This document shows, in pieces, positions 56,097 to 58,327 of a stretch of DNA of 64,000 bases. Both the position numbers and the translations under genes were made by a program. The DNA comes from Orenia metallireducens (GTDB taxonomy: Bacteria; Bacillota; Halanaerobiia; Halobacteroidales; Halobacteroidaceae). The stretch spans positions 555,753-619,752 of the forward strand of contig NZ_LWDV01000009.1 in NCBI RefSeq assembly GCF_001693735.1, given 5' to 3'. Below the pieces are notes generated by a model. It was given only the letters and a program-made list of their open reading frames with translations. It did no database searches and had not been told where the DNA came from. How positions within the stretch are numbered: the stretch's first letter is position 1; every line of letters begins with the position of its first letter.

Positions 56097-56127
56097 AAAA
56101 TCAGGGAGTAGATTACTCCCTGATTTT
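56097..56127 (-). terminator. Terminator of the hemerythrin operon
   Basis: AAAATCAGGGAGTA (56097-56110) pairs perfectly with TACTCCCTGATTTT (56114-56127). Confidence 0.85.
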
Positions 56128-56145: not shown

Positions 56146-56700
56146 TTAATCGACTCTCTTCTCTAAATCGTCTATTAATTTCAAGTATTTATCCTGTATT
56201 CCCTGCTGGCTAGCTTCTATTTCTACTTTCTTACATGCCTCTTCTACCTCTGCTAAAGAATCTTGACTTAAGTTCTTCTCACCATAGATATAAATAGCAT
56301 TATCCTCTTTATCGATATGTCTATATAATAAATCAGTATAAGCAACGGCATTGGCAATAATATCCACTTTAGCTTCACCGTTACCTGCTTTAACTGCTTT
56401 TAAAGCTTGCTCTAAATTATAGATAAATAATCTACCTAAATCATGCTCAGAGAACATAGCTGAAATTGGACCACTGGCTAGAGGTTCACCTAACTCTTCA
56501 GATAACTTCTTAAAGAGTATCTCCTCTTCTTTATTATGGTGGTGCTTATCAGCATAATTTCTAATAAAATCAATTCCATTATAAAAAGAAGCAAAATCTA
56601 CTTCCCCACTTTCAAAGACCTTAATAGATAATTTTCTAACAACTTTTAAGACTCTTTTAATATTCTTATGTTCTTCAACCAATAACTTTATAGATTCCAT
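56146..56700 (-). CDS. Hemerythrin HHE-domain protein
   Basis: A 184-residue four-helix protein with the di-iron ligands visible as His11 (VEEHKNIKR), HHH at 53-55 plus Glu58-60 (DKHHHNKEEE), His86 (SEHDLGR) and RHIDKEDN near 133. HHE proteins bind oxygen, NO or repair iron centres. It follows the DUF1858 gene by 42 bases in one operon with a Crp/Fnr-type site upstream, which together resemble a split YtfE/ScdA (RIC) iron-repair protein. Confidence 0.9.
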   Translation of the reverse strand: MESIKLLVEEHKNIKRVLKVVRKLSIKVFESGEVDFASFYNGIDFIRNYADKHHHNKEEEILFKKLSEELGEPLASGPISAMFSEHDLGRLFIYNLEQALKAVKAGNGEAKVDIIANAVAYTDLLYRHIDKEDNAIYIYGEKNLSQDSLAEVEEACKKVEIEASQQGIQDKYLKLIDDLEKRVD

Positions 56701-56742: not shown

Positions 56743-56937
56743 TTAATTTACCTTTTCATTTAAAGCTTTCATCATCTTATCAAGGTCAATTCCATGTACC
56801 ATCACGGCTTGTTCAATGGCTTCCCCTGTTGCTGTTGGGCATCCCAAGCAGTGCATACCAAAACTCATAAATACTTCGGCAGTCTCTGGATACTTTCTTA
56901 ATACCTCTGAAATAATATCTGTTTTTTCAATTTTCAT
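56743..56937 (-). CDS. DUF1858 (ScdA_N-like) small protein
   Basis: A 64-residue protein, MKIEKTDIISEVLRKYPETA, with the CxxC pair HCLGC (Cys30, Cys33) and GHAT-like TATGEAIEQA. DUF1858 is related to the N-terminal domain of ScdA/YtfE. The start follows GGAGGGG. Co-transcribed with the hemerythrin gene. Expected to act in redox or iron-sulfur repair (inference). Confidence 0.9.
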   Translation of the reverse strand: MKIEKTDIISEVLRKYPETAEVFMSFGMHCLGCPTATGEAIEQAVMVHGIDLDKMMKALNEKVN

Positions 56938-57003: not shown

Positions 57004-57046
57004 ATTATAAAGAAGCTCACCTAACCTTTATATGACCTTAGTCACA
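57004..57046 (-). promoter_or_regulatory. Crp/Fnr-type site at -41.5 of the DUF1858-hemerythrin promoter
   Basis: On the minus strand TGTGACTAAGGTCATA (57046-57031) resembles TGTGA-N6-TCACA with one change. TATAAT lies at 57009-57004; with the RNA start near 56997 the site centre (57038.5) falls at -41.5, the class II activator position. No good -35 box is present, as expected for an activated promoter. Confidence 0.55.
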
Positions 57047-57085
57047 TTATCAAAAATATTTTTAATAATTATTATCAATATAATT

Positions 57086-57748: not shown

Positions 57749-58327
57749 CTACTTACCCTTAACTTCCTCTTCTAATTCTTCCTCTTCCTCTTCTAGTTCA
57801 TCCTCTTCCTCTTCTAGTTCATCCTCTTCCTCTTCTAATTCATCCTCTTCCTCTTCTAATTCATCCTCTTCCTCTTCTAATTCATCCTCTTCCTCTTCTA
57901 GTCCATTCTCTTCCTCTTCTAGTTCATTCTCTTCCTCTTCTAGTTCATTCTCTTCCTCTTCTAGTTCATCTTCTTCCTCTTCTAGTTCATCTTCTTCCTC
58001 TTCTAGTTCATCCTCTTCCTCTTCTAGTTCATCCTCTTCCTCTTCTAGTTCATCTTCTTCCTCTTCTAGTTCATCCTCTTCCTCTTCTAGTTCCTTATCT
58101 AATTCTTGCTTCATTTTAAGATTGTCATCTAAGTTAATCTCTTCTAATATCTCCTCTTCTTCATAATTGGAACAATCCACCATAAATTCTCTCTTTAACT
58201 CTTCATCCTCCTTATCCTTAGGCATTGGAATAATCTTAGCTTCTTCATCATACTTATTCTTTCTCCACCAAACCGCTGCTATAATCAATCCACCCAACAC
58301 AACAAGAGTTACAATTATAGCTTCCAT
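57749..58327 (-). CDS. Membrane-anchored acidic heptad-repeat protein
   Basis: A 192-residue protein. One N-terminal membrane helix (about 3-20, IIVTLVVLGGLIIAAVWW) with RKNK behind it places the rest in the cytoplasm. Residues 79-183 are 15 near-identical heptads ELEEEED (three ELEEEEN, one GLEEEED), then a short basic end VKGK. The heptad is strongly acidic and would form a single long helix rather than a normal coiled coil, since only one Leu per heptad is hydrophobic. No family was recognised. The start is odd: see the hairpin at 58332-58359. Possible roles are a scaffold, spacer or ion-binding tether in a salt-adapted cell (inference). Confidence 0.8.
   Translation of the reverse strand: MEAIIVTLVVLGGLIIAAVWWRKNKYDEEAKIIPMPKDKEDEELKREFMVDCSNYEEEEILEEINLDDNLKMKQELDKELEEEEDELEEEEDELEEEEDELEEEEDELEEEEDELEEEEDELEEEENELEEEENELEEEENGLEEEEDELEEEEDELEEEEDELEEEEDELEEEEDELEEEEEELEEEVKGK
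57779..58093. repeat. 21-bp tandem repeat (15 units) within the acidic protein gene
   Basis: Each unit, of the type CTTCCTCTTCTAGTTCATC plus two bases on the plus strand, codes one ELEEEED heptad. Units differ by only a few silent or D/N changes, so copy number is likely to vary between strains by slippage. Confidence 0.9.

Follow-up and report, generated by a model that had tools for sequence, protein, structure and literature searches.

Predicted HcpR-like control of a DUF1858-hemerythrin operon in Orenia metallireducens and related genomes

The closest described system is the HcpR regulon, for which, as for the comparisons below, we drew on parts of the cited sources. The core targets of HcpR are hcp and frdX, and hemerythrin-like genes are also among its predicted targets (PMC1274295); the same source gives a rule by which R180/E181/R185-type residues of the recognition helix pair with TGTGA. 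The HcpR1 of Desulfovibrio binds TGTGA-N6-TCACA as well as its own promoter (PMC5701242), a C. difficile hcpR mutant is sensitive to NO (PMC12915319), and the P. gingivalis HcpR senses NO via heme, with Met68 implicated (PMC12750200). Outside the HcpR family, a Bradyrhizobium DUF1858 gene whose locus tag adjoins that of the Crp/Fnr gene nnrR is NnrR-dependent, with an entry of -29.2 in the table for the nnrR mutant (PMC6710368). A title-level literature search found no paper title on HcpR in Orenia or Halanaerobiales.

Here we analyzed a 64,000-nucleotide stretch of the O. metallireducens genome (the window), which contains a two-gene operon with the following features.

57031..57046, minus strand: predicted Crp/HcpR-type operator TGTGACTAAGGTCATA, centred at -41.5 and conserved in the sister promoters
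57004..57009, minus strand: -10 box TATAAT, 21 bp downstream of the operator
56997, minus strand: inferred +1, from TATAAT taken as -12 to -7
56743..56937, minus strand: 64-aa DUF1858 protein with a CLGC motif, a hybrid cluster protein-associated redox disulfide domain (PF08984, 7.8e-23; TIGR03980, 92.9 bits, cut-off 44.95)
56146..56700, minus strand: 184-aa hemerythrin (HHE) protein (PF01814, 8e-17)
56097..56127, minus strand: terminator-like hairpin AAAATCAGGGAGTA/TACTCCCTGATTTT at the end of the operon, read from the sequence

The DUF1858 gene comes first and the hemerythrin gene second, and the operon is flanked by a dihydrofolate reductase gene upstream and a putative manganese efflux gene downstream. 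Elsewhere in the window, an ORF at 57749-58327 encodes a membrane-like N-terminus followed by many acidic LEEEEDE-type repeats.

Class II promoters of CRP and FNR have an operator centred at -41.5 and a weak -35 element. A preliminary description had placed a site of this kind at -41.5 as reckoned from TATAAT, with no good -35 box, and both statements hold. The coordinates were verified, the 21-bp gap between TGTGACTAAGGTCATA and TATAAT putting the operator centre at -41.5 relative to the inferred +1, and, judged by eye, no hexamer at a spacer of 16-18 bp agrees with TTGACA at more than 3 of its 6 positions. In both respects the promoter has the layout of a class II activator promoter, its start being the one predicted from TATAAT. 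A Fur-like box, TAATAATTATTATCA at 57063-57077, lies 16 bp upstream of the operator, with one mismatch to what we take to be the Fur consensus. Its conservation in the O. metallireducens ortholog is weak; we rejected it as a promoter part and omitted it from the model because the relatives keep just a 2-mismatch variant, in L092.

The operator was then compared across 39 target promoters from 13 genomes of the order, belonging to 12 frdX-like, 8 close DUF1858, 8 long hcp and 11 short hcp genes. The best match to TGTGAN6TCACA within 250 bp was scored, and TATAAT was allowed at most one mismatch. The label frdX-like is ours and denotes a Fer4 protein named by no NCBIfam model at E 1e-10. For L110 (at 3319) and L156 (at 1353) the gene anchor was assigned manually or taken from a profile hit; where two positions tied, the spacing count used the one closest to the gene; and L025, L026 and L027 were left uncounted, their loci apparently being present in G012 and G010 already. 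Of the 39 promoters, 35 have a site with no more than one mismatch; they are not independent because the genomes are related (three are Orenia). Such sites precede all 12 frdX-like genes, one in each genome possessing such a gene, all 8 close DUF1858 genes, which span three genera, 6 of 8 long hcp genes and 9 of 11 short ones. The DUF1858-hemerythrin operon itself is preceded by this promoter also in O. metallireducens (L025), G011 (L103) and G008 (L095). None of the 10 distant DUF1858 genes has a site, nor does the long hcp gene of L121; L113 has one with two mismatches, as do L161 and L163, at a spacing of 22. The distance to the -10 box is nearly constant: a TATAAT-like hexamer (at most one mismatch) lies at exactly 21 bp in 33 of the 35 site-bearing promoters, and the two exceptions keep a weaker hexamer there (TACTAT in L142, TAATAT in L146). 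The next commonest spacing, 26 (11/35), overlaps repeated TATAAT sequence. A poor -35 is likewise common in the sister promoters, the best one having four mismatches in 26 of 35. As far as sequence comparison can tell, the predicted operator is confirmed as real and is kept at its exact promoter distance in the relatives.

Within its own genome, seven sites share the exact spacing of the window site. One lies 0.85 kb further upstream of hcp; the others precede hcp itself, a DUF1858-regulator operon, the DUF1858-hemerythrin operon, a frdX-like 4Fe-4S gene, pflB-pflA, and DUF2325-FTR1-Fe2+ transport genes. The preliminary description had proposed looking for the same motif before hcp or norV-like genes. 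It is present before hcp with the same site and spacing; before the flavodiiron-ScdA operon, the spacing is the same and the sequence is a related variant, TTTGAT..ATCACA (L072:2822-5724, L148-L150), which in L150 becomes ATTGAT..GTCACA with two mismatches. This operon adjoins a gene for an FNR-like regulator with N-terminal cysteines, a regulator type found only in the three Orenia genomes. The main hcp gene, whose product scores 791.6 bits against TIGR01703 (above the cut-off), lies in a ferredoxin-hcp operon that is followed by what is presumably a rubrerythrin-like gene, with a weak MbfA profile match. The second operator upstream of hcp, also with TATAAT at 21 bp (L066:4683-4698; G000:C10:443655-443697), is conserved at L110:4136. 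The strand between it and the hcp operon has no ORF of at least 60 aa, and this operator would drive RNA antisense to an ORF that we take to be cyclodeaminase-like. The site before the DUF2325, FTR1 and Fe2+ transport genes (L068:4508-6896) is a perfect palindrome, TGTGAGATATCTCACA, at the same spacing. In the asrABC and FocA/NirC promoters, a TGTGAG-type site is followed after 21 bp by a -10-like hexamer (L071:5678-8226, L165, L166, L167), and the last gene of the asr operon encodes its own Crp/Fnr regulator.

The genome encodes four strong Crp-type helix-turn-helix proteins (at least 54.6 bits) and a fifth, partial match of 34 bits, above the cut-off. Our candidate regulator is a 224-aa protein (G000:C9:548473-549147) with a Crp/Fnr sensor and an HTH_Crp_2 domain, whose gene lies about 64 kb from the window site and about 6.6 kb outside the window, immediately downstream of a second DUF1858 gene, whose promoter is of the same kind. 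The order site-DUF1858-regulator is found in the own genome and G011, and Natroniella has site-NIR_SIR/4Fe-4S-DUF1858-regulator. In L085, L086 and L087 the regulator gene has frdX-like genes nearby; in G010, G011 and the own genome it is next to a DUF1858 gene; at several loci it has neither as neighbour. Orthologs at E ≤1e-40 occur in 12 of 13 genomes, of which we regard 11 as convincing because the G005 match is 37% identical and has N-terminal cysteines. Both frdX and the regulator are missing from G004. The O. metallireducens protein contains no cysteine, hence no FNR-type cysteine motif. It has Tyr-Pro, invariant in the 11 orthologs, where the cAMP-CRP candidate of the same genome has Arg-Ser, which we take to be the R82/S83 of the cyclic-nucleotide pocket; cAMP is thus an unlikely ligand. 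Among solved structures, those closest to it in both sequence and fold are of cAMP regulators (GlxR and M. tuberculosis CRP), not of DNR or HcpR; since the model is weak (mean pLDDT 68.7), the fold search confirms a Crp fold and no more.

Taken together, we consider it probable (roughly 75%) that the window site serves this HcpR-like regulator as its operator in an activator-dependent promoter of class II, the signal likely being NO or another nitrosative or redox cue. A homodimer of the 224-aa protein would bind TGTGA-N6-TCATA at -41.5, compensate for the missing -35 contact and recruit RNA polymerase to the DUF1858-hemerythrin operon, activating rather than repressing it. The same regulator would also switch on hcp, the gene for the frdX-like ferredoxin, and the DUF1858-regulator operon in which it is itself encoded. 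Our best guess for the inducer is NO, because hcp and frdX are core HcpR targets, because of the Desulfovibrio HcpR1 site, and because the C. difficile hcpR mutant is NO-sensitive. The signal may nevertheless be broader, as the operons of pfl, asr, nirC and FTR1 have similar sites. An HcpR-like regulator that acts at -41.5 but governs enzymes of iron and sulfur in response to anaerobic or redox conditions in general, not to NO stress, would also fit the sites that occur at this spacing before pflB-pflA, the DUF2325-FTR1-Fe2+ transport genes and the asrABC/nirC operons. We regard this as possible yet clearly less likely, the best-conserved targets being the hcp and frdX-like genes, which correspond to the core HcpR targets in the parts of PMC1274295 used here.

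A different question is which Crp/Fnr protein reads the site. The recognition helix of the candidate, SRETVSR, carries R180/E181/R185, which fit TGTGA under the rule in PMC1274295, with R189, E190 and R194 invariant in 11 orthologs, but it does not single out the binder because the other Crp/Fnr regulators of the genome share the R/E. The earlier assignment of the site to the HcpR type was borne out by comparison, the same promoter preceding hcp, the frdX-like genes (12/12) and the DUF1858-regulator operon. The asr-linked protein (L002), the Cys-bearing FNR-like protein (L003) and the cAMP-CRP candidate (L004) all share these R/E residues; related sites at the same spacing are present in promoters next to L002 and L003, and L004 is encoded directly downstream of a class III cyclase gene (L078:3-2277). 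Were one of these the reader, the operon would respond to sulfite, oxygen or cAMP. Their genome distribution disfavours all three as the main binder and makes this improbable: the L003 type occurs in 3 of 13 genomes, the L002 type in 4 (excluding the G003 row, which is the place of the HcpR-like ortholog), and the L004 type in 8 of 13, being absent from G008 and G010, which both keep the site. The best argument for the HcpR-like protein comes from genomes with few regulators. In a family scan, G008, G009, G010, G001 and G002 each have one strong Crp helix-turn-helix protein; in G008, G009 and G010 it is the HcpR-like ortholog, with other matches below 30 bits, and the three other regulator types are absent from these three genomes at the thresholds used. 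G008 keeps the site before both DUF1858-hemerythrin and hcp. Other Crp/Fnr proteins can nonetheless serve similar sites. The short hcp promoter of G004 (L132) has TTTGATATACATCACA at the same spacing although the regulator is absent there, and G005 has the frdX site with the 37% identical, Cys-bearing protein as its sole regulator homologue.

A chance match in AT-rich intergenic DNA would suit the 16-mer by itself, which is weak evidence: allowing up to one mismatch, the 3.47-Mb genome has 56 copies of TGTGAN6TCACA against 35 for a backwards control. Chance is excluded for practical purposes by the exact spacing in 33 of 35 promoters and by shuffling the regions upstream of the target genes, after which 32 of 7800 sequences had a site and 3 of 7800 had one with a -10 box at 21 bp. 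The genome-wide pattern TGTGAN6TCAN{20,26}TAWWWT gave 15 raw matches, or 12 distinct sites, against 4 in the control; seven of these distinct sites share the window site's N23 spacing exactly (p about 5e-4 under a 1-in-7 chance, hand calculation).

The operon had been read as one for iron repair. This is weakly supported, by the TIGR03980 membership of the DUF1858 protein and by a YtfE-like ligand stretch in the hemerythrin, whose His/Glu residues are invariant in five relatives and whose central part aligns weakly with the HxxxE and SEHD of YtfE (E 0.0084). Against the curated RIC families, the hemerythrin scores 20.1 vs 254 bits and the DUF1858 protein 25.1 vs 259 bits, so both fall below the RIC/ScdA cut-offs. 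BLASTP of the hemerythrin against the ScdA of the same genome was not significant, and a PDB fold search returned 3cax first, with no YtfE among the 50 matches listed; on these grounds we rejected it as a RIC member. The true RIC is encoded elsewhere in the genome (L072; TIGR03652, 243.5 bits, cut-off 204.7), behind the flavodiiron gene with TTTGAT..ATCACA at the same spacing and beside the Cys-bearing regulator. The closest solved relative of the DUF1858 protein is 2k53, and ScdA N-termini match DUF1858 weakly (8e-4). With the weak YtfE alignment, this suggests that DUF1858 and hemerythrin together may form a split relative of RIC. In a speculative reading that we think unlikely, DUF1858 would act with the HcpR-like protein as its thiol- or NO-sensing partner, and the DUF1858-hemerythrin pair would be a two-protein RIC counterpart for nitrosative damage.

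Predicted HcpR-like control of the DUF1858-hemerythrin operon is well supported by these comparisons, and it extends a known control system rather than adding a new kind of one; the known regulon is extended because hemerythrin-like genes were already among the HcpR targets predicted in the parts of PMC1274295 used here. It provides a concrete regulon for nitrosative or redox stress in halophilic anaerobes, links DUF1858, an unexplained family, with Hcp control by promoter evidence in addition to gene neighbourhood, and points to genomes with a single strong Crp-type regulator as a place for clean regulator assignment.

The locus compares with known systems as follows. First, like the HcpR regulon of Desulfovibrio and Clostridia, as far as the parts of PMC1274295, PMC5701242 and PMC12915319 used here describe it, it combines a Crp/Fnr protein that lacks the FNR cysteines with hcp and frdX genes preceded by TGTGA-N6-TCACA-like sites, and with probable self-regulation. 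Unlike that regulon, the targets here include a DUF1858-hemerythrin operon, the regulator appears to share a transcript with DUF1858, TCATA is a frequent right half-site, and the spacing is nearly fixed at -41.5. Second, it shares with class II CRP/FNR promoters the operator centre at -41.5 and the weak -35, reckoned here from a predicted start; unlike CRP, the regulator lacks the cAMP arginine. Third, ScdA of the RIC/ScdA/YtfE group is a fusion in which a hemerythrin domain follows an N-terminal domain resembling DUF1858, and the window proteins match these halves weakly, whereas here the two are encoded by separate genes and score far under the curated cut-offs. Finally, as in the Bradyrhizobium NnrR-DUF1858 pair (PMC6710368, in part), a DUF1858 gene lies beside a Crp/Fnr regulator gene; NnrR is a different regulator with TTG-type sites, and the case independently connects DUF1858 with control of the NO type.
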